NCBI RefSeq assembly: GCF_016464305.1 | Contig: NZ_JAEIOJ010000012.1 | Span: forward strand, 1-64,000 | Source: Umezawaea beigongshangensis | GTDB lineage: Bacteria; Actinomycetota; Actinomycetes; Mycobacteriales; Pseudonocardiaceae | Length of the DNA stretch: 64,000 bases | Direction: 5' to 3' | Part shown: in pieces, positions 47,160 to 62,032 of the stretch | How positions within the stretch are numbered: position 1 is the stretch's first letter | Layout of the letters: every line of letters starts with the position of its first letter | Program-made: the position numbers and the translations under genes | The notes under the pieces: generated by a model | Database searches by the model: none | What the model saw: the letters and a program-made list of their open reading frames with translations, nothing else | What the model was told of the DNA's origin: nothing

Positions 47160-47435
47160 TTGCCCCGAATCCTTCACCAGCTCTCCCTCGACGGGAATTA
47201 TTCTCCACCGTTGCCGGGTGTGCGCGAGGCGTTGCGGGGTTCGCTGGACCAGGTCCACCTCACCCTCGACCCGCTGGTCGACGGTCTCGTGTCCGACCTG
47301 GCCGTCCTCCGAGACGTACCCCCTGCTGATCCGCACGCGCCGGCGGAACCGGTCGCCGTGCCGCGGGCCGCCGCCAGCTCCGCCGCGGGGGCCACGCCAC
47401 CGGAAGCGGTGCTCGCCGGGAGGGACGACCGGTGA
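47160..47435 (+). pseudogene. N-terminal relic of a HisC-like aminotransferase
   Basis: The frame reads LPRILHQLSLDGNYSPPLPG, VREALRGSLDQVHLTLDPLV and DGLVSDLAVL. It then degenerates into alanine-rich sequence before a stop at 47435. The first 50 residues align without gaps to the start of the fusion protein at 54910-56910 (IVHQLSLNENFAPPLPGVRD, DRSHLTLDALSDGLT). No PLP-binding half or catalytic lysine remains. It lies just upstream of the terpene cyclase gene, showing that a paralogous aminotransferase was once part of this cluster. Confidence 0.7.
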
Positions 47436-47556: not shown

Positions 47557-49233
47557 ATGACGTCGGTGCACGACGACCTCGACCCGTTCCCCGACGTGCT
47601 CTCGAAGGCGATCACCGGGGGCGCCGAGGCGCTGTTCCTCGCGCAGCGCCCCGACGGGGTGTTCGACTACAGCGAGGACAACCTGACCTCCACGCTGGGC
47701 ACGGTCGGCGCGCTGTCGGCGCTGCACTTCGCCGATCCGGACGGCAGCGCCGACCTCGTCGCGGCGGGCGTCGGGTGGCTGCGGCGCACCCAGAACGACG
47801 ACGGCGGCTGGGCGATGGTCCCCGGCCTGTCCAGCGAGGCCGGACCGACGGCCGTCGCCTCCGCCGTGCTCCACCTGGTCGACCGGGCGGGGAGCGCGGA
47901 GTCCGTGCGGGCCGGGCAGCGCTGGATGGACGACTTCGGCGGCCTGGACGCGATCCCGCACCCCGAGGTCGTCTCCTGGTGCCGGCAGTACTACGGCTTC
48001 GCCGGCTGGCTGGCCCCGGAGGACATGCGCCGCTTCCCGCTGGAGCTGGCGCTGTGGCCGGGGCTGTACCGGAGGGTGTTCGACCTGCGCGTGCCGATGG
48101 CCTTCGCGCTCGGCCTCGCGCAGGCCAGGCACAAGCCGCTCACCGCGGTGCAGCGCGCGCTGGCCCGCCTGGCGGAGCCGAACGCGCTGAAGGCGATCCG
48201 GCAGGTCTACGAGCACGAGGGCTCGACCGGGGCCTGGTGCGAGAACGCGTGGGTCACCGGTCTGGTCTGCACCGGCCTGGCCCGCGCCGGGCTGGCCCCG
48301 GACATGGTCGCCGCCGCCGTGGGGTGGTTCCGCCGGACGATGCACCCCGACGGCTGGTGGCAGACCGGTCCGCTCGACTCGGCCTGGACGATGTACGCCG
48401 TGCGCGGTCTCACCGAGGCGGGCTACGCCGACGACCCGCGGCTGACCGCGTCGACCCGGTTCTTCGTGCGCGTGCAGCAGCACCGTCCGTTCCTCGCGTT
48501 CGGCTGCCCGCCGGGCTACTGGGGCTGGGCGGGCACCGAGGGCTGGCCCTCGACCCTGGAGACGGGGGAGATCCTGTCCGTGCTGTCCAGGACGCCCGGC
48601 GACGAGCAGGCGAACGCCGTCGAGCGGGGCGTCGACTGGCTGACCCGCATGCAGGACACCCGCGGGTCCTGGGGGCTCTGCGTGCGCAACACCAGGGTGG
48701 CCAACAGCGGCCCCTGCCCGATGACGACCGTGCAGGCCGTCGACGCGCTGCTCGACGCGGGCGTTCCGGCCGACGACCGCCGCGTGCGCCGCGCGCTGAG
48801 CTGGCTCGCCGGGGCCCAGCTCCCCGACGGCGCCTTCGAGTCCGTGTGGTACCGGCACCACACCATGGGCACCGCCGCCGTGCTGGAGACCTTCTCCAGG
48901 GTCGGCAGGGCGGACGGGGAACCGGCCCGCCGGGCGGCGGCGTGGCTGGAGCGGACCCGGCTGCCCGACGGTTCGTGGGGCGACGGGGCCGGTGCGCCCG
49001 GCACGGTGGAGGAGACCGGCTGGGCGATCTCGGCCCTGCTGGCCGCCGGCACCGACCCGGCCGGGGTGCGGCCGGGGGTGGACTGGCTGCTGGAGCACCG
49101 CGACTCCGGCGGCGGGTGGCCGTCGGAGGCCGTCAACGAGTACGTGCGCCACGTCAGCCGGTACACCAACCCCGCTCTCGCGCAGGGGATGGCCCTGCGC
49201 GCGCTGGGCCGCTACCGGGAGGCGATCCGCTGA
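47557..49233 (+). CDS. Squalene-cyclase-like protein (class II terpene cyclase superfamily)
   Basis: This 558-aa protein begins MTSVHDDLDPFPDVLSKAIT. It contains repeated alpha-helical QW-like motifs: FLAQRPDGVFDYSEDN, TQNDDGGWAMVPG, MHPDGWWQTG, MQDTRGSWGLC, AQLPDGAFESVW and TRLPDGSWGDG. Each is followed by a helix of T-x-x-T-x-x-AL type (PGTVEETGWAISALLAA). This is the fold of squalene-hopene cyclases and prenyltransferase/squalene-oxidase repeat proteins. The canonical DXDD acid motif is not visible; the equivalent region reads GPLDSAWTMYAV. It is shorter than hopene cyclases. A cyclase acting on a small prenylated or epoxidised substrate is the best guess. Confidence 0.7.
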   Translation: MTSVHDDLDPFPDVLSKAITGGAEALFLAQRPDGVFDYSEDNLTSTLGTVGALSALHFADPDGSADLVAAGVGWLRRTQNDDGGWAMVPGLSSEAGPTAVASAVLHLVDRAGSAESVRAGQRWMDDFGGLDAIPHPEVVSWCRQYYGFAGWLAPEDMRRFPLELALWPGLYRRVFDLRVPMAFALGLAQARHKPLTAVQRALARLAEPNALKAIRQVYEHEGSTGAWCENAWVTGLVCTGLARAGLAPDMVAAAVGWFRRTMHPDGWWQTGPLDSAWTMYAVRGLTEAGYADDPRLTASTRFFVRVQQHRPFLAFGCPPGYWGWAGTEGWPSTLETGEILSVLSRTPGDEQANAVERGVDWLTRMQDTRGSWGLCVRNTRVANSGPCPMTTVQAVDALLDAGVPADDRRVRRALSWLAGAQLPDGAFESVWYRHHTMGTAAVLETFSRVGRADGEPARRAAAWLERTRLPDGSWGDGAGAPGTVEETGWAISALLAAGTDPAGVRPGVDWLLEHRDSGGGWPSEAVNEYVRHVSRYTNPALAQGMALRALGRYREAIR

Positions 49234-49288
49234 CCGGGTGCCAGGAGTCGACGAGTTCTGACCGGACGTCCCAGGAACGGAGAACCTC

Positions 49289-50497
49289 ATGACGGGTGCG
49301 ACACGGGAGGATTCCTTCACCGAGGACTACTGGCGCGATCCGCACGGAACCCTCGCCAGGACGCGGGAGACCTGCCCGGTCCGCCAGGTCGACTTCGAGA
49401 GCGGCCCGACCTGGCTGGTCACCCGCTACGCCGACGTGCGCGCGGGGCTCACCGACGCACGACTGGCCAAGGACTGGCGGTCCACCCTGCCCGCGGAGGA
49501 ACGAGCCGCGGCGCCTCCCGGACTGCCCGCCCCGATGTCGCACATGCTGACCTCGCTCGACCCGCCGGAGCACACCCGGCTGCGGAGCCTGGTCGCCCAG
49601 GCGTTCACCGCTCGCCGGGTGGCCGCGCTGCGCCCGCGCGTGGAAGCCGTCGCCGCCGAGCTGCTCGACGCGCTGCCCGAGGACGAGCCGATCGACCTCG
49701 TGGCGCGCTTCGCGATCGTCCTCCCCATGGTGGTGATCTCCGAGCTGCTCGGCGTTCCCGAGATCGAGCGCGACGAGTTCGCCCGCCTGTCCACGGTGCT
49801 CATCGACGAGTGCCCCGAGGCCGAGCTCGTGCGGGCCTCCACGGAGATGGCCACCTACCTGGAGGGACTGGTCGCGGCCAAGCGCGCGGCGCCCGACGAC
49901 GCGCTGCTCTCCGCACTGATCACCGCGTCCGACGAGGGGGACCGGCTCTCCGACCTGGAGATCGTGGCGATGGCCATGCTGCTGCTCATGGCGGGGCACG
50001 AGACCACCGCCGTCTTCATCACCAACAGCGTCCGGGCGCTGCTGGACGACCCGTCGTCGCGCGAGCGCCTGGCGTCGCCGCAGTCGGTCCCGCCGCTGAT
50101 CGAGGAGCTGCTGCGCTGGCTCTCCCCGGCCATCAACGCCTCGCTGCGCTTCGCCGCGGAGGACCTGGAGATCGGCGGGGTCGCCATCGCCAGGGGCGAG
50201 TCGGTGATGCTGTCGACGGGAGCCGCGAACCGCGACCCCGCGCGGTACGACGCACCGGCCGAGCTGGACCCCGACCGCAACACCGCCGGTCACCTGGCCT
50301 TCGGCCACGGCATCCACCGGTGCCTGGGCGCGGCCCTGGTCCGCCTGGAGGGCGAGGTCGCGCTGGCCGCCCTGTTCACCCGCTTCCCGCGACTGCGAGC
50401 GGCGGCCGATCCCGCCGAGCTGACGTTCCGCCACAGCGTCCACGTGCACGCCCCGCGCACGTTCCCGGTCGTGCTCGGGCCCCGTGCGGGAACCTGA
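49289..50497 (+). CDS. Cytochrome P450
   Basis: This 402-aa class I bacterial P450 has I-helix MLLLMAGHETTAVFITNSVR, ExxR in LIEELLRWLSPAINASLRFA, the C-helix WxxxR equivalent HTRLRSLVAQAFTARRV and haem loop LAFGHGIHRCLGAALVRLEG (Cys ligand). There is no membrane anchor, as expected for soluble actinobacterial P450s. It follows the cyclase by 55 bases with GGAGAA before ATG 49289, so the two form an operon. A tailoring oxidation of the cyclised product is likely. Redox partners are not in the window. Confidence 0.9.
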   Translation: MTGATREDSFTEDYWRDPHGTLARTRETCPVRQVDFESGPTWLVTRYADVRAGLTDARLAKDWRSTLPAEERAAAPPGLPAPMSHMLTSLDPPEHTRLRSLVAQAFTARRVAALRPRVEAVAAELLDALPEDEPIDLVARFAIVLPMVVISELLGVPEIERDEFARLSTVLIDECPEAELVRASTEMATYLEGLVAAKRAAPDDALLSALITASDEGDRLSDLEIVAMAMLLLMAGHETTAVFITNSVRALLDDPSSRERLASPQSVPPLIEELLRWLSPAINASLRFAAEDLEIGGVAIARGESVMLSTGAANRDPARYDAPAELDPDRNTAGHLAFGHGIHRCLGAALVRLEGEVALAALFTRFPRLRAAADPAELTFRHSVHVHAPRTFPVVLGPRAGT

Positions 50498-50581: not shown

Positions 50582-51415
50582 TCAGTCCTTCACGGCCGTC
50601 GCGGACATTCCCGGCTCCTGGTACTTCGCCCAGCGCGGCTCCGCGCCGCGCGGCTCGTCGCCCATCACCGTCACGCGCTGGCCCACGCGGCGCCCCACGT
50701 AGTCGTTCACCGCGTAGTGTTGGGTCGCCCGGTTGTCCCACATCGCCACCGCGCCGGGAACCCAGCGGTAGCGGCAGGTGCGCTGGGGGCTCTCCGACAC
50801 GGTGAACAGGTGCTCCAGCAGCGCGTCGCTCTCGCCCTTGCTGAGCTGGAGGATGCGCCGGGTGAACATGCGGTTCACGTACAGGCTCTTGCGGCCGGTC
50901 ACCGGGTGCGTCCGGATCACCGGGTGCTCCACCTCGCCGCGGAACGAGCCGTTCGGGTGGACGAACAGGTGCTGCGCCGTGGTGCCCTCCAGCATGTCGC
51001 GCACCGGCTCCGACAGCGCCTCGCAGGCGAGGTACTGGTTGCTCCACATCGTGTCGCCGCCCGCCTCTGGCGTCACCGTGATCTGCAGGACGGAGGCGAT
51101 CGGCGGACTCTGGACGAAGGTCACGTCGGTGTGCCACACGTCGGCGCGCGCGCCCTGGTCCGAGTCCAGCACGACGATCTTGTCGTGGCCGTCGAGCTTC
51201 GGCAGGAAGGGGTGGACCTCCAGCTCCCCGAAGCGGCTGCCGAACGCCTCGTGCGCCTCCGGGGTCAGGCCGCCGGCGTCCGGGAAGAACAGCACCAGGT
51301 GGCGCATCAGCAGGTCGTGGATCTCCGTGAACCGTTCGTCGTCGATCGCGCCGAGATCGACGCCACGCACCTCCGCGCCGAGCGAACCGGAGATCGGGCG
51401 AACCTGGAAGGTCAT
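50582..51415 (-). CDS. TauD/TfdA-family Fe(II)/2-oxoglutarate dioxygenase
   Basis: This 277-aa protein begins MTFQVRPISGSLGAEVRGVD. It holds the metal facial triad in WHTDVTFVQSPPIASVLQIT (His, Asp) and WDNRATQHYAVNDY (distal His), with a following conserved Arg region (RRVGQRVTVMGDEPRG) for 2-oxoglutarate. The family hydroxylates, desaturates or rearranges small molecules. It is divergent from the methyltransferase gene across 171 bases. Its place among terpenoid genes suggests a tailoring role; a sulfonate or aryloxyalkanoate substrate is less likely here. Confidence 0.85.
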   Translation of the reverse strand: MTFQVRPISGSLGAEVRGVDLGAIDDERFTEIHDLLMRHLVLFFPDAGGLTPEAHEAFGSRFGELEVHPFLPKLDGHDKIVVLDSDQGARADVWHTDVTFVQSPPIASVLQITVTPEAGGDTMWSNQYLACEALSEPVRDMLEGTTAQHLFVHPNGSFRGEVEHPVIRTHPVTGRKSLYVNRMFTRRILQLSKGESDALLEHLFTVSESPQRTCRYRWVPGAVAMWDNRATQHYAVNDYVGRRVGQRVTVMGDEPRGAEPRWAKYQEPGMSATAVKD

Positions 51416-51586: not shown

Positions 51587-52579
51587 ATGACCGCACAGGA
51601 CGAGCTGGCCAAGATGATCGACCTCGCGACGCCGTTCGCGGTCAGGGCGGCCGTCACCCTGCACCTGCCCGAACTGATCGACGGCGGCACCGCCCGGCTC
51701 GACGCCCTGGCCGGCGCCGCGGGTGCCGATCCCGACTCGCTGCGCAGGCTGCTGAACCACCTCACCTCCATCGGGTTCCTGGCCGAGCCGCAGCCCGGCA
51801 CCTACGCGCTGACCGACGTGTCGCGCGTCCTGCTCGGCGACGACCACGGCGCAGCCCGCCGCTGGCTCGACATCGAGGGCCCCGGCACGAAGATGGACCT
51901 CGCCTACGCGGGCATGGCCCACTCGGTGCGCACCGGCGAGTCCGCCTACGCCACCGTGCACGGCGTCCCGTTCTGGGACGACTACGGAGCCGACGAGGAG
52001 CTGCGGCTGTTCTTCGGCCGGGTCATGGCCGTCCACGCGTGGCAGACCGGACCGGTCGTGGCCACCGAGTGCGACTGGTCGTCCACCCGGCGGGTGCTCG
52101 ACGTCGGCGGCGGCACCGGCGCGCTGCTGATCGAGGTGCTCGGGGCCAACCCGCACCTGACCGGCGCCGTGCTGGACCTGCCCCCGGTCGAGCCGGAGGC
52201 CACCACCGCGCTGAAGGAGGCCGGGCTGGAGGACCGCGCCGCCTTCGTGCCCGGCAGCTTCTTCGACCCGCTGCCCACCGGCTACGACACCTACGTGATC
52301 TCCCGCGTCCTCACCGACTGGAGCGACGAGGACGCGCTGCGGATCATGACCCGCGCCGCCGAGGTCGTCGGCACCGGCCGCCTGCTGGTCGTGGAGGTGC
52401 TGGCGGGTCGGGAGCACGCGAAGAACAACTCGTCGTTCGACCTCCAGTCGCTGACCCTGCTCGGCGGCCGGGAGCGCACGGAGGAGGACTTCACGGCCCT
52501 GGCGCGACGCGCCGGGTTCTCCACCGCCACCACACGCCGCTGGGACGGCGGCCTGCTCGTCGTGGAGTGCGGGCTCTAG
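51587..52579 (+). CDS. SAM-dependent O-methyltransferase (acetylserotonin OMT-like)
   Basis: This 330-aa protein has the N-terminal winged-helix dimerisation domain (ATPFAVRAAVTLHLPELIDG, DSLRRLLNHLTSIGFLAE) found in plant and actinobacterial small-molecule O-methyltransferases. The catalytic domain follows, with RRVLDVGGGTGALLIEVLG, AVLDLPPVEPEATTALKEAG, VISRVLTDWSDEDALRIMTR and RLLVVEVLAGREHAKNNSSF. The usual catalytic HDW is TDW here. It probably methylates a phenolic or enolic hydroxyl of the cluster product. It is convergent with the flavoprotein gene, the stops eight bases apart. Confidence 0.85.
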   Translation: MTAQDELAKMIDLATPFAVRAAVTLHLPELIDGGTARLDALAGAAGADPDSLRRLLNHLTSIGFLAEPQPGTYALTDVSRVLLGDDHGAARRWLDIEGPGTKMDLAYAGMAHSVRTGESAYATVHGVPFWDDYGADEELRLFFGRVMAVHAWQTGPVVATECDWSSTRRVLDVGGGTGALLIEVLGANPHLTGAVLDLPPVEPEATTALKEAGLEDRAAFVPGSFFDPLPTGYDTYVISRVLTDWSDEDALRIMTRAAEVVGTGRLLVVEVLAGREHAKNNSSFDLQSLTLLGGRERTEEDFTALARRAGFSTATTRRWDGGLLVVECGL

Positions 52580-52587
52580 CGACCGGG

Positions 52588-53853
52588 TCACCGGGACCGC
52601 GCCCAGCTCGGCAGCTGCCCGCCTCTCGGGTCGGGCAGCACGCCGAGCTGGTGCAGGCGGTCCAGCGGACTCAGCGAGTGCTGTCCCAGTCCGGCCATGT
52701 TGTGCATGATCGTGTGGCGCAGCCGCCGGTTGCGTCCGGTCTTGCGCAGCGCGCGACGGCCCAGCACCCGGCCGAACGGCGACAGGTCGCTGATCATGCG
52801 GGTCGCGTTGTGGCTGGTCGTCCCGACGGCGATCAGCTCGGGACGGCGCCCGGTGCTCCACGCGCGCAGCAGCGGTGCCAGCAGTTCGGGCGCCAGGTCG
52901 CCGTCGAGCTCGCGCACCCGCGCGGCGAGGCTCGCCGCGTCCAGGATCGAGCTGTTCATGCCCTGACCGGCGGCCGGGTGCACGGAGTGCGCGCTCTCCC
53001 CGATCAGCGCCAGCCCGTCAGCGGCCAGCGACGTGGTCAGCGACCGCCCCACCGGCAGGACCTGCCGCGCCGACCAGGCGCGCGCGACGTCCTCGCGCAG
53101 CGGGGCGAGCGCCGGCACGTCGCGCACCAGGCCGTCGATCCACCCCCCGGCGGCGCTCGCGTCCACGCCCCGCAGCTCGTCCGGCTCGACCTGCACGTAC
53201 AGCCGCGCCCGCTCGCCGGGCAGCGAGTACCGCATCGCCAGACCGCGCGAGGTGACGTAGGTGGACACGTCGTCGCCCAGCGGCTGGCCGGTCAGCTCGA
53301 AGGCGGCCAGCCTGTGCGGGTAGTCGGCGCGCTCGACCTCGATCCCGGCGTTGCGCCGCAACCGCGACGACAGCCCGTCGGCCGCCACGACCAGTCCCGC
53401 CGTCAGGTCACCGCCGTCCGTGCGCACACCGGTCGTCCGGCCGTGCTCGTCGCGCACCAGTTCCCGCACCAGCACCCCGCGCCGCAGCTCCACCGATGCG
53501 GGCAGGGTGCGGGCCAGCGCCGCCAGGATCACGTGGTAGTCGTGCACCAGCAACCACGGCCGCCCGGTGTCCAGCGTCCGGTAGTCCAGCGCCAGCAGCG
53601 CCGCGCCGTGCGGGTCGCGCACCGTCAGCCCCGACAGGCGCAACGCGCCGTCCGCGGCCAGCTCGTCGGCCACGCCCCAGTCCGCGAGCACGTCCGTCGC
53701 GCCGGGTTGCAGCAGCTCGCCCTTGGGAACGGGCCTGATCTCGCGCTGCTTGTCCAGCACCAGCACGCGCAGGCCGAGTCCGCCCAGCGCGTGCGCCGCG
53801 GCGAGTCCGGCGACCCCGGCCCCGCTCACCAGCACGTCCACGTCGGTGCTCAC
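52588..53853 (-). CDS. FAD-dependent monooxygenase (UbiH/PHBH type)
   Basis: This 421-aa protein has the dinucleotide-binding motif VDVLVSGAGVAGLAAAHALG, the DG motif LVVAADGLSSRLRRNAG and the GD-type motif DGLALIGESAHSVHPAAGQG MNSSILDAASLAAR. In the last, GE replaces the common GD. The C-terminal 70 residues (MISDLSPFGRVLGRRAL, RHTIMHNMAGLGQHSLSPLD) resemble UbiH/Coq6 and squalene-epoxidase-like enzymes. In meroterpenoid pathways such enzymes epoxidise the prenyl chain to trigger cyclisation, or hydroxylate the aromatic ring. GTG 53853 is preceded by GGAGGTG. It follows UbiA by 70 bases. Confidence 0.85.
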   Translation of the reverse strand: MSTDVDVLVSGAGVAGLAAAHALGGLGLRVLVLDKQREIRPVPKGELLQPGATDVLADWGVADELAADGALRLSGLTVRDPHGAALLALDYRTLDTGRPWLLVHDYHVILAALARTLPASVELRRGVLVRELVRDEHGRTTGVRTDGGDLTAGLVVAADGLSSRLRRNAGIEVERADYPHRLAAFELTGQPLGDDVSTYVTSRGLAMRYSLPGERARLYVQVEPDELRGVDASAAGGWIDGLVRDVPALAPLREDVARAWSARQVLPVGRSLTTSLAADGLALIGESAHSVHPAAGQGMNSSILDAASLAARVRELDGDLAPELLAPLLRAWSTGRRPELIAVGTTSHNATRMISDLSPFGRVLGRRALRKTGRNRRLRHTIMHNMAGLGQHSLSPLDRLHQLGVLPDPRGGQLPSWARSR

Positions 53854-53923: not shown

Positions 53924-54907
53924 TCATGAGGCGGTCGCCTTCCGCAGTTCGGCCGGGGGGATCTCGTGGCGGGTGCGCATGGCGTTCTGGGTGATCACGC
54001 TGAACGCGAGGACCGGCAGGAGCACCGCCACCGCGAACGGGGCGCCCGCACCGGCCGCCGTCACCGCGCCCGCCAGCACGAGCCGTTCCGCCACCAGCAC
54101 CTCGTGGGCGCGCAGCGCCGACTCGCGGGTGATGTCGTCGCCCTGGGTCAGCAGACCGCCGAACACCCACGCGCCGATCGCGGTGGCCGCCAGCAGCAGC
54201 ACCAGGTAGGACGTGCGGTCGGGCAGCGGCGCCAGCGCGGACGCCACGGCCACGAGCAGGGCCAGGCCGTAGAGGGTCTGCGCGAGGCGCGCGCCGTAGG
54301 CGACGCCCCGCTGCACCGGCACCGACCGGTACCCGCCCGCCTCGTCGCCCTCCACGTCCCGCACCGCGCCGACGAGGTTGGACGCCGCGTCGTGCAGCAG
54401 GAACACCACCGCGAACGGCAGGGCCGTCCACGGATCGCCACCGGGCACGCAGGTGGCGCCGGCCAGCACGGCCAGCGACGTCAGCGCGCCGCGCACCAGG
54501 TTGCCGGAGATGCCGCGCCCCTTGTACAGGCGGCTGTAGGCGGCGATCCCGACCACGCCGAGCACCAGCAGCACCAGCACCCGCCAGTCCACGGCCAGCG
54601 CCAGCGCCGCCGCACCGACCTCGCTCACCACCGCCGAGAGCAGCGCGGCGCGCGGGCTGAGCCGACCGGACGGGATGGGCCGCTGAGGTTTGTCGATCGC
54701 GTCCAGCTCGCGGTCGAACCAGTCGCCCAGGTAGTGCCCTCCCAGCCAGACCAGCACCGGGATCAGCACGGCGGCGGCCAGGTGCAGCGGGCCGGGGTCG
54801 CCACCGGCGACGGACGCACCGGCCAGGCCGACGACACCGGGATAGGTCAACGTGTACGGGCGCCACGTCTGGACGTGCGCCTCGGCGGTGCGCCGCCAGT
54901 TCGCCAC
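53924..54907 (-). CDS. UbiA-family membrane prenyltransferase
   Basis: This 327-aa polytopic protein has both aspartate motifs: GDWFDRELDAIDKPQRPIPS (NDxxDxxxD type with Gly in place of Asn) and VRDVEGDEAGGYRSVPVQRG (DxxxD). It has about eight hydrophobic helices, for example LHLAAAVLIPVLVWLGGHYL and VLVLLVLGVVGIAAY. It transfers a prenyl group from the diphosphate to an acceptor, aromatic in most homologues. GTG 54907 begins two bases after the stop of the prenyl-diphosphate synthase fusion, strongly implying substrate hand-over. The acceptor is unknown. Confidence 0.9.
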   Translation of the reverse strand: MANWRRTAEAHVQTWRPYTLTYPGVVGLAGASVAGGDPGPLHLAAAVLIPVLVWLGGHYLGDWFDRELDAIDKPQRPIPSGRLSPRAALLSAVVSEVGAAALALAVDWRVLVLLVLGVVGIAAYSRLYKGRGISGNLVRGALTSLAVLAGATCVPGGDPWTALPFAVVFLLHDAASNLVGAVRDVEGDEAGGYRSVPVQRGVAYGARLAQTLYGLALLVAVASALAPLPDRTSYLVLLLAATAIGAWVFGGLLTQGDDITRESALRAHEVLVAERLVLAGAVTAAGAGAPFAVAVLLPVLAFSVITQNAMRTRHEIPPAELRKATAS

Positions 54908-54909
54908 GG

Positions 54910-56910
54910 CTACCGGCTCCGGTCGATCGACGTGTTCGCGACCTCGGCGAGCATCGCGGTGTGCTCGTTGGGCGGCAGCCCGGCCAGGCATGCCTTCGCG
55001 GCGGTCACCTCGGCCTCCGCGTGCTCCACCGCCCGCTTCAGCGCGCCCGTCTCGTCGAGCACGTCCCGCAGGGCCGTGAACGCCTCCTCCGGCGGCAGCT
55101 CACCGCTCAGCGCGCTCACCACCCGTGCGCGCTGCTCCGGCGTGCCCGTCTCGTGCGCCAGCAGCACCGGGTAGGTGGGCCGCAGGTTGCGCAGGTCGCT
55201 CAGCCCGGACTTGCCGGTGATCGCCGGATCGGACAGGTAGGGCAGCAGGTCGTCGTACATCTGGAAAGCGAGGCCCAGGTGCTCGGCGTACCGGCTCACC
55301 GCGTCGACCACGGCCGGTTCCGCGCCACCGAGCACCGCACCGGCCCGGCAGGCGCCGCGGAACAGCGCGCCGGTCTTGAGCGCCATCACCGTCAGGTAGT
55401 CCGCCAGCGGGTGCGCGGGGTCGGAGGCCATCGCGCCCTCCAGCGCCTGGCCGCGGCACACGTCCACGCCCGCGTCGGAGATCGCCCGCACCGCCTCCAG
55501 CGCCGCCGCTTCCGGCACACCGCGCTCGACGCAGGCCGCCACCGAGCCGAACGTCCGCATCATCAGCGCGTCACCGGTGGCGATGGCGTCGGACGTGCCG
55601 TAGCGGTGCTGCACCGACGGCTGGCCGCGGCGCATCTCGTCGCCGTCGATCACGTCGTCGTGCACCAGCGACCCGACGTGCAGGTACTCCACCGCGAGCG
55701 CGGCGGGCACGACCTGCTCCACGTCGCCGCCCACCGCGCCCGCCGCCGCGGCGAGCAGCAGCGGACGCAGCAGCTTGCCCGGTGTGAGCAGCGCGTAGCG
55801 GGAGATGCCGAGCACGGGGTCGGTGTGCTCGGGCCACTCGGCGTGCAGCGCCGCGCGCAGCCGGGTCACGAGTGCCTCGGCCGCGGGGGAGAAGCCCGTG
55901 CGGGTGTACTCGGTGACCAGCGCGATCACCGCGTCGTTGGCCTCCCGCGTGCCCACGGTCACCCGCACGCCCAGCCCGCCCACGTCGCGGACCTCGACCC
56001 CGTGCTCGGCCAGGAACTCCACCAGCGGCGGACCGTCGGCGCCCAGCGGGAGCCACAGGTAGTTGCCCGCGCTCGGCGGCACCTCCAGCCCGCGGTTCAC
56101 CAGCGCGGCCCGCAGCCGGTCCCGCTCCACGCAGACCGCCTCGCACTGCGCGCGCATCTGCTCCTCGGCGGCCAGCGCGGCGGTGGCCGCGGCCTGCGCG
56201 ACGGTGCTGACGCGGAAGAACGGCGTGGTGCCGCGCAGCGGCGTGACGACGGACGCCGCCGCCACCAGGTAGCCCACGCGCAGGCCCAGCAGCCCGTGCG
56301 ACTTGGAGAACGTGCGGACCACCACGACACGGGGGTCCTCGCGGTAGAGGGCCAGCGCGTCGGCGATCTCGGCCCGGTCGGCGAACTCGCGGTACGCCTC
56401 GTCCACGACCACCAGCACGTCCGGCGGCAGCGCGTCGAGGAACCCCCGCACCTCGGCGTGGCCAAGCACCGCGCCGGTGGGGTTGTTCGGGTTGCACAGC
56501 AGGACGGCCCTGGTGCGCGGCGTCACCGCGGCGGCCATCGCCTCCAGGTCCGTGCCGTAGCCGTCGACCAGCGGCACCGCGACCGGCGTGGCGCCGCTGT
56601 TGCGCGCGAGCGGTCCGTACCCCCAGAACGACAGCGCGGCGTGCACGACCTCGGTGCCCGGTCCGGCGATGCCGTGGAGCAGCTGCTGGAGCACCGCGCC
56701 GGACCCGGCCCCGACCAGCACGTCGGAGGCCGGCACCCCGAGGCGCTCCGCGATCGTGGCGGTGAGCCCGTCGGAGAGGGCGTCCAGGGTCAGGTGGGAC
56801 CGATCGGCGGTGCTGATCACCGCGTCCCGGACTCCGGGCAGCGGTGGGGCGAAGTTCTCGTTGAGAGAAAGCTGGTGGACGATGTTCGGCACGCTGAGGT
56901 CCCCGTTCAC
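54910..56910 (-). CDS. Fusion of HisC-like aminotransferase and polyprenyl diphosphate synthase
   Basis: This is a 666-aa chain. Residues 8-338 form a class I/II PLP aminotransferase: LLCNPNNPTGAVLG, VVVDEAYREFADRAEIADAL and the lysine K203 in RTFSKSHGLLGLRVGYLVAA, closest to histidinol-phosphate/aromatic aminotransferases. Residues about 343-666 form a trans-polyprenyl synthase: GKLLRPLLLAAAAGAVGG, first Asp motif VHDDVIDGDEMRRGQPSVQH (418-422) and second FQMYDDLLPYLSDPAITGKS. Both halves keep their catalytic residues and full length. The join has no stop or frameshift. The protein heads the minus-strand operon with UbiA and the flavoprotein. Joining amino transfer and chain elongation in one polypeptide is unusual. 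Confidence 0.85.
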   Translation of the reverse strand: MNGDLSVPNIVHQLSLNENFAPPLPGVRDAVISTADRSHLTLDALSDGLTATIAERLGVPASDVLVGAGSGAVLQQLLHGIAGPGTEVVHAALSFWGYGPLARNSGATPVAVPLVDGYGTDLEAMAAAVTPRTRAVLLCNPNNPTGAVLGHAEVRGFLDALPPDVLVVVDEAYREFADRAEIADALALYREDPRVVVVRTFSKSHGLLGLRVGYLVAAASVVTPLRGTTPFFRVSTVAQAAATAALAAEEQMRAQCEAVCVERDRLRAALVNRGLEVPPSAGNYLWLPLGADGPPLVEFLAEHGVEVRDVGGLGVRVTVGTREANDAVIALVTEYTRTGFSPAAEALVTRLRAALHAEWPEHTDPVLGISRYALLTPGKLLRPLLLAAAAGAVGGDVEQVVPAALAVEYLHVGSLVHDDVIDGDEMRRGQPSVQHRYGTSDAIATGDALMMRTFGSVAACVERGVPEAAALEAVRAISDAGVDVCRGQALEGAMASDPAHPLADYLTVMALKTGALFRGACRAGAVLGGAEPAVVDAVSRYAEHLGLAFQMYDDLLPYLSDPAITGKSGLSDLRNLRPTYPVLLAHETGTPEQRARVVSALSGELPPEEAFTALRDVLDETGALKRAVEHAEAEVTAAKACLAGLPPNEHTAMLAEVANTSIDRSR

Positions 56911-57444: not shown

Positions 57445-58752
57445 ATGAGCGTCGCCGCCCCGCCCGCCGACCCCACCACCACGCCGACGCCGGTCGGCAG
57501 GCTGTCCGCCGCGCTGCTGGCGTCGCAGACCGGCCTGTACATCGCCCTGCTGACCCCGCTGCAACTGCTCCTCGCCCTCCAGTTGACCAGGATCTCCGGC
57601 GGCACGGCCGCCACCTCCGCGTTCAGCCTCGTCACCGGGGTCGGGGCGATCGTGGCCCTGGTGTTCACGCCGATCGCCGGGCGGATCAGCGACCTCACCA
57701 CGTTCCGCCTCGGCCGCCGCCGCACCGGAATCCTCGTCGGCTCGGTCACCGGCGCGGTGGTGCTCGTCCTGCTCGGCTCGGCCACCACCGTGTGGCAGGT
57801 CGTCCTGCTGTGGTGCGTCGCCAAGGCCGCCCTGAGCTTCCAGCACGCGTCCACGACCGCCACCGTCGCGGACCAGGTCCCGCCGCACCGCCGCGGCATC
57901 GTCTCCGGAACGCTCGGTCTCGGCATCGCGCTCAGTCCGCTGCTCGGCATCGCGCTCGTCAACGCCCTTCCCGCCGGGTCCGCGACGCAGTGGTACGCCA
58001 TCGCGGGCACGACCGTCGTCGGCGGCGGTCTCGCGGTGCTGCTGATCCGGGAGGGACGACCGGTCCGCCGGGAGCGGCCCGCGCTCGGTCTCGGCGGCGT
58101 GCTGCGCACGTTCTGGCTGGACCCGCGCCGCCACCCCGCCTTCGGCTGGGCGTGGCTGGTGCGCTTCCTCATCACCGCTGCCTACGCCAGCGGCACCTAC
58201 CTCGCGTTCTTCCTCATCCAGCGCTTCGGCGCCGGTCCCGCCGAGGTCGGCGGGCTGGTGTTCGCGATGACGGTGGTGAACACCGTCTGCCTGGTCACCG
58301 CGAGCCTCGCCGCTGGCCACTTCTCCGACCGGCTCGCGCGGCAGAAGCCGTTCGTGGTCGCCGCCGGACTGCTCGCCGCCGCGTCGATGTGCACGATGGC
58401 GTTCGCGCCGTCGATCCTCGCGGTGTTCGTGATCCACGGCGTCGTGGGCATCGGCATCGGGGTGTTCTTGTCGGTGGACCTCGCGATGTGCGTGCGGGTG
58501 CTGCCCCACGACGAGGACGCGGCCAAGGACCTCGCCATCGTCAACATCGCCAACACCCTGCCGCAGTCGCTGGTGCCGCTGGTGGCGCCACTGCTGCTCG
58601 GGATCGGCGGGTTCACCGCGCTGTTCGGCTTCCTCGGGCTGCTCGGCGTCGTCGGCGCGATCGCCGTGCGCCGGGTGCCGGAGATCGGCCAGGAGGGAGG
58701 AGCGCCCGGCGTCGCACCGCTCACGCGCCTCCCCGCCGAACCGTCGAGCTGA
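57445..58752 (+). CDS. MFS transporter
   Basis: This 435-aa protein with about 12 membrane segments begins MSVAAPPADPTTTPTPVGRL. It shows the MFS motif A-like loops GRISDLTTFRLGRRRTGILV and AAGHFSDRLARQKPFVVAAG, and helices such as LVTGVGAIVALVFTPIAG and VIHGVVGIGIGVFLSVDLAM. It resembles sugar/glycoside or drug MFS members of actinomycetes; the substrate cannot be read from sequence. GGAGGAG lies seven bases before the ATG. As the outer gene of the terpenoid cluster it is the likely exporter. Confidence 0.8.
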   Translation: MSVAAPPADPTTTPTPVGRLSAALLASQTGLYIALLTPLQLLLALQLTRISGGTAATSAFSLVTGVGAIVALVFTPIAGRISDLTTFRLGRRRTGILVGSVTGAVVLVLLGSATTVWQVVLLWCVAKAALSFQHASTTATVADQVPPHRRGIVSGTLGLGIALSPLLGIALVNALPAGSATQWYAIAGTTVVGGGLAVLLIREGRPVRRERPALGLGGVLRTFWLDPRRHPAFGWAWLVRFLITAAYASGTYLAFFLIQRFGAGPAEVGGLVFAMTVVNTVCLVTASLAAGHFSDRLARQKPFVVAAGLLAAASMCTMAFAPSILAVFVIHGVVGIGIGVFLSVDLAMCVRVLPHDEDAAKDLAIVNIANTLPQSLVPLVAPLLLGIGGFTALFGFLGLLGVVGAIAVRRVPEIGQEGGAPGVAPLTRLPAEPSS

Positions 58753-58880: not shown

Positions 58881-59035
58881 GTGATCCGAGTCACTTAATC
58901 TTCGTCACGTTTGGGTGAACTTGTAACTACTCAGAGTTCCCGCTTCTGTTTCCGCCACCGCGTGCACAACCTCCAACCGTGCGACGACGACGTCGGACAC
59001 GCGCGATCGTCGCGGCCCTCCCCGGGAGTGTGGAC

Positions 59036-62032
59036 ATGAGATGGACTACGCGACGACCACGTGCGTCCGCGTTCGGTCTGCTGGCAGCGGCACTGCTGCT
59101 GAGCGGCGTACCGGGCCCCGCGCTCGCCGATCCGAGGAGTGATGCCCCGCCGCCCCAGGAGCCGGGCGTCACGCTGCGGGTGTTCGACGTGCAGGTGTCG
59201 CTGGACCGGCTGTGCGTGCTCAAGCCGGCTCAGACGCCCAACGTCGACAAGCTCATGCCGACCGTGGACTGGACGTCGGCCGACGACTTCGGCTTCGCCG
59301 ACCGCTTCGTGGCCGAGGTCTCCGGCAACGTCGGCATCACCCTGGCGGGCAGCTACGCGTTCCGGCTGCTCAGCGACGACGGTTCGCGGCTGTCGATCGA
59401 CGGCACCGTGGTCGTCGACCACGACGGCGTGCACGGCACGCAGCCGAAGGACGGCACGGTCACCCTGTCCGCCGGTCCCCACGCCCTGCTGATCGAGCAC
59501 TTCGAGCGCGACGGCGGGCAGCAGCTGACCCTCCAGTGGAAGCCGCCGGGCGCGGCGGACTTCTCGGTCGTGCCGAACTCCGCGCTCAGCACGGACAGCG
59601 GGGTCGTCCGGGTCACCGCTCCCGGCCGCAAGGAGTGCGCGACGGGTGCCGACTCACCCGGCGACGGCCTGCCCCTGAACGCCGTCCACCCCGACTTCAC
59701 CCTGACCGACCTGCGTCCCGCGGGCTTCCAGCCCAGGGTCAGCGCGATGGACTGGTTCCCCGACGGCCGCCTGGCCATCGCCACCTGGGACGGCAAGAGC
59801 ACCGATACCGGTGAGCTCTGGGTGCTGGGCAACGTCACCGGAGCCACCTCGCCGAGTCGGGTCACCACCAAGCGGATCGCGACGAACCTGCGCGAGCCGA
59901 TGGGCCTGAAGGTGCTCGACGGCATGATCTACGTGTCGCAGAAGCACGAGTTGACCGAACTGGCCGACACGAACGGCGACGACGTGATCGACCGGTCCCG
60001 CACGGTCGCGACGTGGCCCTACGGCGGCAACTTCCACGAGTTCGCGTTCGGCCTGCTGTACCGGGACGGGTTCTTCTACCTCAACCTGTCCGTCTCGATC
60101 AACCTCGGCGGTGCGACCACCGACCCGCAGCCCGCCGCCAACCGCGGCACGACCGTGAAGGTCGACCGCGCCACCGGACGGGTCAGCTACGTGGCTGGCG
60201 GCCTGCGCACGCCGAACGGGATCGGCTGGGGTCCGGAGGGGGGCGTGTTCGTCAACGACAACCAGGGCGGCTGGCTCCCCGCGTCGAAGCTGGTGCACGT
60301 CAAGCAGGACCGGTTCTTCAACCACTACACCAATCCGGCCGGTCCGTTCGACGCGAACCCGATCGCACAACCCGTGCTGTGGTTGCCGCAGAACGAGATC
60401 GCGAACTCGCCGAGCACGCCGGTGCAGCTCACCCAGGGCCTCTACGCCGGACAGATGATCTTCGGCGACGTCACCTACGGCGGTCTCCAGCGCGCGTTCC
60501 TGGAGAAGGTGAACGGCGAGTACCAGGGCGCGGTGTTCCGCATGACCCAGGGGCTCGAAGCGGGCGTCAACCGCACGACCGTCGGCCCGGACGGCGCCAT
60601 CTACATCGGCGGCATCGGGGACGACGGCAACTGGGGCCAGGACGGCAAGCTCAAGCACGGCCTGCAGAAGCTCGCGCCCAACGGCGGCCGGACGTTCGAC
60701 CTGCTGGCCGTGCGCGCGGTCGCGGGCGGGTTCGAGCTCGAGTACACGCAGCCGGTCTCGGCGGAGACCGCGGCGGGGCTCGCCGGCCGCTACCGGGCCG
60801 AGCAGTGGCGGTACGCGCCCACGCCCGCGTACGGCGGGCCCAAGGTCGACCAGGAGAACCTGCGGGTCGCCTCGGCGACGCCCTCCGCGGACGGCCGGAA
60901 GGTCACGCTCAAGCTCGACGGCCTGAAGGCCGGCCGGGTGGTGCACCTGCGCTCGCCGCGCCCGTTCACGTCGAGCGCCGGTGTGCCGCTGTGGAACACC
61001 GAGGCCTGGTACACGCTCAACAACCTCGTCGGCAGCGCCCCGTCGGCCACCCAGTCCTTCGAGGCGGAGAGCGCGGCGCTGTCCGGCGGCGCGCGCGTCA
61101 ACACCGACCACCTCGGCTACTCCGGCGCGGGTTTCGTCGACAACTACGGCGCTCAGGGGGCGAGCACCGCCTTCGCCGTGCACGCGGCGAAGGCGGGCTC
61201 GCACGACGTCGGTCTGCGCTACAGCAACGGACCGAACCCGTCCGCCGGGACCAAGACCGTCAGCGTCCACGTCAACGGGGCGAAGGTCAGACAGGTCGCC
61301 CTGGCCGACACCGGCAACTGGGACACCTGGGCCACGCACACCGAGGCGCTGACGCTGCGGGCCGGGGCGAACACCATCGCCTACCGGGTGGACAGCGGGG
61401 ACGTCGGGCACGTCAACCTGGACCAGTTGACCGTCACCCCCGCCTCGCGCATCACGCTCTACAGCGGTGGCGGAACGGAGAACTGGCGCAACGCCGACGG
61501 CAGCGCGCCCTCCTGGCCGGTGGCGAACGGGTCGATGGAGGCGCTGGGCGGCGACATCCGCAGCAGGAGGGGGTTCGGAGACTTCAGGCTGCACCTGGAG
61601 TTCTGGCTGCCGAACCTGCCGTCCTCCGTCACCGGGCAGCAGCGCGCCAACAGCGGCGTGTACCTCCAGGACCGCTACGAGCTCCAGATCCTGGACAGCT
61701 ACGGCAAACAACCGCTCGCAGCCGACGACGCCGCGAGCATCTACCTGAAGAGAGCCGCCTCGCCCAACGCGGCCACCGCGCCGCAGACGTGGCAGACCTA
61801 CGACGTCACGTTCCGGGCGGCCCGCTTCGACAGCGCGGGCGTGAAGACCGAGAACGCCCGCGTCACCGTGGTGTGGAACGGGGTCACGGTCCACCGGGAC
61901 CTCGCGATCGACGGACCGACCGGCAACGGCGCTCCCGAGACGCCGACGGCGGGGCCGTTCCGCCTCCAGGACCACGGAGATCCCGGTGAGAACGTGAGGT
62001 TCCGCAACATCTGGGTCGAACCACTGGGATAG
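59036..62032 (+). CDS. Large secreted multidomain protein (PA14, propeller, CBM, DUF1080-like)
   Basis: This 998-aa protein has the signal peptide MRWTTRRPRASAFGLLAAAL, cleaved near PALADP. Residues about 50-180 resemble a PA14 domain (GSYAFRLLSDDGSRLSIDGT, SAGPHALLIEHFERDGGQQL). Residues about 220-560 form a sorbosone/glucose-dehydrogenase-like propeller (SAMDWFPDGRLAIATWDGKS, GLRTPNGIGWGPEGGVFVND, TTVGPDGAIYIGGIGDDGNW). Residues about 675-800 form a CBM6/35-like module (SFEAESAALSGGARVNTDHL, GHVNLDQLTVTP). The last 190 residues resemble DUF1080/3-keto-glycoside hydrolase (FGDFRLHLEFWLPN, GVYLQDRYELQILDSYGKQP). It probably binds and processes polysaccharide outside the cell. Confidence 0.8.
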   Translation: MRWTTRRPRASAFGLLAAALLLSGVPGPALADPRSDAPPPQEPGVTLRVFDVQVSLDRLCVLKPAQTPNVDKLMPTVDWTSADDFGFADRFVAEVSGNVGITLAGSYAFRLLSDDGSRLSIDGTVVVDHDGVHGTQPKDGTVTLSAGPHALLIEHFERDGGQQLTLQWKPPGAADFSVVPNSALSTDSGVVRVTAPGRKECATGADSPGDGLPLNAVHPDFTLTDLRPAGFQPRVSAMDWFPDGRLAIATWDGKSTDTGELWVLGNVTGATSPSRVTTKRIATNLREPMGLKVLDGMIYVSQKHELTELADTNGDDVIDRSRTVATWPYGGNFHEFAFGLLYRDGFFYLNLSVSINLGGATTDPQPAANRGTTVKVDRATGRVSYVAGGLRTPNGIGWGPEGGVFVNDNQGGWLPASKLVHVKQDRFFNHYTNPAGPFDANPIAQPVLWLPQNEIANSPSTPVQLTQGLYAGQMIFGDVTYGGLQRAFLEKVNGEYQGAVFRMTQGLEAGVNRTTVGPDGAIYIGGIGDDGNWGQDGKLKHGLQKLAPNGGRTFDLLAVRAVAGGFELEYTQPVSAETAAGLAGRYRAEQWRYAPTPAYGGPKVDQENLRVASATPSADGRKVTLKLDGLKAGRVVHLRSPRPFTSSAGVPLWNTEAWYTLNNLVGSAPSATQSFEAESAALSGGARVNTDHLGYSGAGFVDNYGAQGASTAFAVHAAKAGSHDVGLRYSNGPNPSAGTKTVSVHVNGAKVRQVALADTGNWDTWATHTEALTLRAGANTIAYRVDSGDVGHVNLDQLTVTPASRITLYSGGGTENWRNADGSAPSWPVANGSMEALGGDIRSRRGFGDFRLHLEFWLPNLPSSVTGQQRANSGVYLQDRYELQILDSYGKQPLAADDAASIYLKRAASPNAATAPQTWQTYDVTFRAARFDSAGVKTENARVTVVWNGVTVHRDLAIDGPTGNGAPETPTAGPFRLQDHGDPGENVRFRNIWVEPLG

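Follow-up and report, generated by a model that had tools for sequence, protein, structure and literature searches.

The closest described systems to the gene cluster considered here are the epoxidase-cyclase meroterpenoid pathways of the xiamycin and merosterolic acid type, in which prenylation is followed by FAD-dependent epoxidation and class II cyclisation. In the window, i.e. the whole 64,000-nucleotide stretch of Umezawaea beigongshangensis DNA analysed, the enzyme types are found in matching order, whereas the family to which the cluster belongs departs from those pathways in its ever-present aminotransferase and in a soluble squalene-hopene-cyclase-like (SHC-like) cyclase without the DxDD motif. 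At the level of single enzymes, the closest relative of the aminotransferase is Rv3772 (HisC2, PatA-type; PDB 4r2n), deposited as a putative phenylalanine aminotransferase, with which it has in common the fold, all the PLP residues and 40% identity over the entire aminotransferase half, although it carries SFW in place of the SFE loop and is fused to a prenyl synthase. With HisC (histidinol-phosphate aminotransferase, TIGR01141) it shares the superfamily and the motifs, but it scores well under the cut-off of that family and is clustered with terpenoid genes. The prenyl synthase has the fold and the first motif, DDVID, of the bacterial trans-prenyl diphosphate synthases (PF00348; nearest solved chain 9v4g, 'prenyltransferase'), while nearly the whole cluster family shows DDLLP for the second DDxxD and the window protein bears the fused N-terminal aminotransferase. 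In turn, the neighbouring cyclase shares its fold with the class II terpene cyclases (squalene-hopene cyclase, the drimenyl diphosphate synthase SsDMS and MstE), but has TLET instead of DxDD. A literature search, mostly of open-access coverage and hence weak evidence of absence, returned no paper on the fusion or on the gene set and no characterised matching cluster. Gromomycin was tried as a related system and set aside, since neither an aminotransferase nor UbiA figures in its text. The features of the locus are the following:

54910-56910, minus strand: fused gene, HisC/PatA-like PLP aminotransferase plus trans-prenyl diphosphate synthase (open reading frame, Pfam, AlphaFold model)
53924-54907, minus strand: UbiA-family prenyltransferase, separated by 2 bp from the fused gene upstream of it; the curated families closest to it are DGGGP synthases
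52588-53853, minus strand: FAD-dependent (UbiH/PHBH-type) monooxygenase, putative epoxidase (profile matches)
51587-52579, plus strand: O-methyltransferase, COMT-like with dimerisation domain (profile matches)
50582-51415, minus strand: TauD-type 2-oxoglutarate dioxygenase (profile matches)
49289-50497, plus strand: cytochrome P450; nearest curated family pentalenolactone synthase, below cut-off
47557-49233, plus strand: SHC-like protein, 558 aa, without DxDD (profile, alignment, structure comparison)
47160-47433, plus strand: pseudogene of a second, stand-alone aminotransferase (alignment to intact genes)
57445-58752, plus strand: MFS transporter, with a homologue flanking the cluster in fusion-lineage genomes

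The original prediction, made from the letters of the DNA, had described the first of these genes as a single-chain fusion heading an operon with UbiA, and both statements are borne out. In fact, positions 54910-56910 of the minus strand form a single unbroken reading frame of 666 codons, in which residues 1-335 correspond to the aminotransferase and residues ~345-666 to the prenyl synthase. The Pfam matches to Aminotran_1_2 (residues 13-329, 154 bits) and polyprenyl_synt (residues 369-602, 187 bits) are both far over the cut-off, and the coding signal is uniform, with GC3 values of 0.970 and 0.957 for the first and second halves. The AlphaFold model of the chain (mean pLDDT 92.8) consists of two folded domains with hardly any linker, the placement of one domain relative to the other being uncertain at a pTM of 0.68. 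UbiA, which passes the PF01040 cut-off (119.9 against 34.2 bits), starts 2 bp past the fused stop. Translation of the fused gene probably begins at the GTG of codon 7 (56892) and not at codon 1, since a GGGGA stretch lies ~8 nt upstream of that codon and the gene caller chose the same position in two relatives.

Proteins spanning both domains were sought in a family-level search of 200 genomes, and 4 further genomes were found to hold a full-length fusion, with homologues 78–87% identical over residues 1-666 (one of them starting at residue 6); Umezawaea, Saccharothrix coeruleofusca and Actinokineospora bangkokensis share the fusion at the equivalent place. An artefact of sequencing or assembly which joined two genes might be suspected, as split relatives often have no more than a 4-bp overlap at this point and one false indel would mimic a fusion. 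Nevertheless, the in-frame junction is identical in independently sequenced genomes, which refutes such an origin and leaves it a negligible probability, and a stop or frameshift near the junction is likewise ruled out by these full-length proteins. No further fusions were seen in samples of the order and of the class, and the full-length fusion was not found on plasmids.

In many of the 200 genomes searched, the two halves occur as two adjacent genes. Within a named collection of 32 loci, the prenyl synthase, UbiA, the SHC-like protein, the FAD monooxygenase and the O-methyltransferase are present in every one and TauD in 31; together with the aminotransferase, and often a P450, they make up the conserved module, close homologues of the window's P450 being found in part of the cluster family only. 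Across ~30 named genomes from four actinomycete families, the aminotransferase gene is conserved in the neighbourhood of those for the prenyl synthase and UbiA. The aminotransferase is a separate gene in 26 of the 32 clusters, directly adjoining the prenyl synthase in 22 of them and lying elsewhere in the cluster in Pseudonocardia and three Micromonospora. The fusion is present in four loci (Umezawaea tangerina, U. endophytica, Saccharothrix coeruleofusca and Actinokineospora bangkokensis) and an eroded fusion in one (Actinosynnema pretiosum), while in the last the contig ends ahead of the aminotransferase position. An MFS transporter homologue (59–66%) stands beside the cluster in all fusion-lineage genomes. 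The window also encodes, at 58979-62032 on the plus strand, a protein of ~950–1017 aa with PA14, CBM35 and 3-keto-disaccharide hydrolase domains, which adjoins the cluster and is not conserved with it.

The three Micromonospora loci carry a diverged module, with 43–59% identity in the shared genes, and in addition EryCIII-like glycosyltransferases, a KAS III-like gene and P450-like genes which may be glycosyltransferase activators; the product of this version may be glycosylated. The genes found beside the Micromonospora and Saccharopolyspora versions (EryCIII-like glycosyltransferases, KAS III, an ABC transporter and an acyl-CoA ligase) gave no clue to the acceptor.

As regards catalysis, neither half was expected to have lost its key residues, an expectation that holds for the PLP residues and the first Asp motif, but not for the second, which reads DDLLP-Y and not DDxxD. 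All the marks of a fold-type I PLP aminotransferase (NPxNPTG, Asp-x-x-Tyr, Schiff-base Lys and phosphate Arg) are found in the fused half as NPNNPTG (140), DEAY (170), K203 in SKSHGLLGLR and the Arg after K203, and NPNNPTG, SKSHGLLGLR and DDVID (418-422) are present as predicted. The top-scoring family is NF002878 (PRK03321, HisC2-PatA), yet the score is under the curated cut-off (337.7 against 374 bits), and the half also fails the equivalog threshold of TIGR01141 (221.5 against 276.55 bits). In the fused clade the active-site loop SFExYP is altered to SFWGYG or SFEGYG, a change that may reflect a shifted substrate or early drift and by which the fused and stand-alone aminotransferases may not be interchangeable.

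The prenyl synthase half matches PF00348 with 187 bits against a cut-off of 27 and keeps its first DDxxD. At residues 553-557 (55240-55254, minus strand), where the second would be expected, the last Asp is replaced by Pro; since nearly all the prenyl synthases of the cluster family, separate homologues included, have the same DDLLP, the alignments mark it as a family trait and not as a loss specific to the fusion. Small residues (Gly/Ala-Ser) ahead of the first Asp motif would allow a prenyl chain of C20 or longer.

The arrangement in split relatives suggests how the fusion could have come about. Of the 22 adjacent pairs, 12 show a 4-bp overlap (ATGA or GTGA) between the stop of the aminotransferase gene and the start called for the prenyl synthase, and 6 more have a spacing of 1 bp; in these 18 pairs, a one-base indel could fuse the two genes. 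Moreover, the fused aminotransferases are monophyletic (support 100/100) and the prenyl synthases of all fused genes, eroded fusions included, form one clade, which argues for a single fusion event, from two adjacent genes of the conserved module.

At the other side of the cluster, adjoining the SHC-like gene, the genomes of the fusion lineage have a second aminotransferase gene, which stands alone. These copies group with enzymes of Lentzea, Amycolatopsis and Crossiella (100/98) and not with the fused copy, and the SHC-like and P450 genes near them have a like affinity, for which reason the stand-alone aminotransferase probably arrived as part of a cassette derived from a different version of the cluster. 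In the window, the SHC-like and P450 genes (47557-50497, plus strand) have 80–86% identity with their counterparts in the Saccharopolyspora indica group, while the prenyl synthase is only ~50% identical, a difference that we read as a sign of cassette exchange between clusters; the SHC-P450 part seems, with moderate support (81–88), to be common to that group and the window's own lineage. To judge from these affinities, the cluster is a mosaic.

The two aminotransferases have had different fates among the members of the lineage. The stand-alone gene is intact in Umezawaea, Saccharothrix coeruleofusca, Actinokineospora and Actinosynnema, while in the window only a pseudogene is left, in which the N-terminal 45 codons are retained and two internal deletions remove the PLP lysine region; this remnant still aligns, in its flanks and at its two ends, with the intact counterpart in S. 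coeruleofusca and U. tangerina. In Actinosynnema it is the fused half that has lost NPNNPTG and the PLP lysine by deletion, and A. bangkokensis has Gln in place of the fused PLP lysine, with an intact stand-alone copy. Dn/dS values were obtained by the Nei-Gojobori method on very GC-rich genes, for which only the contrast between halves is to be trusted: within Actinosynnema they are 0.73–1.01 for the fused aminotransferase half, 0.18–0.35 for the prenyl synthase half and 0.22–0.45 for the stand-alone copy, and for the window 0.33–0.62 for the HisC half and 0.27–0.47 for the IDS half, the window's figures being compatible, on their own, with functional constraint and with recent loss alike. 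In the intact fusions (window, Umezawaea and Saccharothrix) constraint on the two halves is equal, while the Actinosynnema fused aminotransferase half evolves neutrally (dN/dS ~1), yet stays in frame.

In fact, three Actinosynnema loci have an eroded N-terminal domain of ~230 residues in frame before an intact prenyl synthase. This domain contains no stop and keeps its frame across 8–10 indel blocks (approximate, from the protein alignment); in simulations, substitutions alone left it stop-free in 13–32% of cases, and indels cut the odds much further. Persistence of the frame suggests that, in Actinosynnema, translation of the prenyl synthase still begins at the former start of the aminotransferase. 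By extension, the fused aminotransferase of the window could already be a passive N-terminal domain, kept for a prenyl synthase without a start of its own while another transaminase does the step, a reading to which the neutral, in-frame Actinosynnema domain, the changed active-site loop and the other, distinct HisC/PatA homologues elsewhere in the window's genome lend some weight. Nevertheless, we regard it as unlikely: the catalytic residues of the window are all intact, the dN/dS of its HisC half equals that of the IDS half, and, its other cluster copy being a pseudogene, total loss would leave none, unlike every other cluster complete on its contig. Indeed, every cluster whose aminotransferase position is visible keeps at least one catalytically complete enzyme, which points to transamination (or a related PLP reaction) as part of the pathway. 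The proposal that both halves serve one pathway is thus upheld, by this retention and by the conserved neighbourhood with UbiA.

A further claim, that the two products are formed in step by virtue of the fusion, fares worse. True functional coupling would mean that the fusion was selected to fix the ratio of the aminotransferase product and the prenyl diphosphate, or to channel them to the membrane UbiA; the directly downstream position of UbiA, the open frame in all genomes of the lineage and the constraint on both halves in the window, Umezawaea and Saccharothrix are in keeping with it. However, the genes are separate in most relatives, and Actinosynnema and A. bangkokensis have eroded or mutated the fused aminotransferase half, with the separate copy intact in the former, and yet keep the cluster. 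These observations argue that the covalent link is dispensable for the pathway, and make selection for coupling improbable.

The explanation that we favour, and consider likely, starts from a lineage-specific fusion, with a single origin, of neighbouring terpenoid-module genes whose translation was coupled, and continues with the alternate loss of redundant aminotransferases. Two coupled genes would have fused once, possibly via a one-base indel; a second hisC-like gene of a different branch, beside the cyclase, would have made the aminotransferases redundant, and these would then have been lost alternately, the window's genome keeping the constrained fused copy and losing the stand-alone one, Actinosynnema keeping the stand-alone copy with a fused half eroding in frame, and A. 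bangkokensis losing the fused PLP lysine. Accepting this history of fusion and alternate loss, the window's fused protein is most likely still bifunctional, with halves working as they did when separate and a link that has no necessary function.

As for the pathway, the aminotransferase would make or consume a small-molecule acceptor, the prenyl synthase would supply the prenyl diphosphate and UbiA would join the two, after which the FAD monooxygenase would epoxidise and the SHC-like protein cyclise the intermediate, with tailoring by the O-methyltransferase, TauD and the P450; the best inference for the product is a meroterpenoid. The SHC-like protein has the double alpha-toroid fold (Foldseek TM 0.70–0.73 to SHC, with 0.73 to 1sqc, and 0.65–0.67 to SsDMS). 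Where DxDD would align, the residues are TLET, and an alignment of 17 homologues shows no variation at Glu335 or Glu338; as a guess, the opening of an epoxide by a weaker acid would fit such a cyclase. More tentatively, and with rather less confidence than we place in the history of the fusion, the window enzyme may be a bifunctional member of an undescribed actinomycete terpenoid family, in which the cyclase uses Glu for the DxDD acid and the aminotransferase makes the acceptor.

The fusion is, then, a lineage quirk inside a pathway worth studying. One fusion, a redundant second enzyme and alternate loss constitute a clean natural experiment: they indicate that two domains of a biosynthetic cluster can be joined without functional consequence, and caution against taking such fusions for channelling. 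The interest of the locus rests as much on the conserved module itself, seven core genes in ~30 actinomycete species, which stands out by the unusual motif of its prenyl synthase and by the lack of DxDD in its cyclase, and whose product is apparently undescribed.
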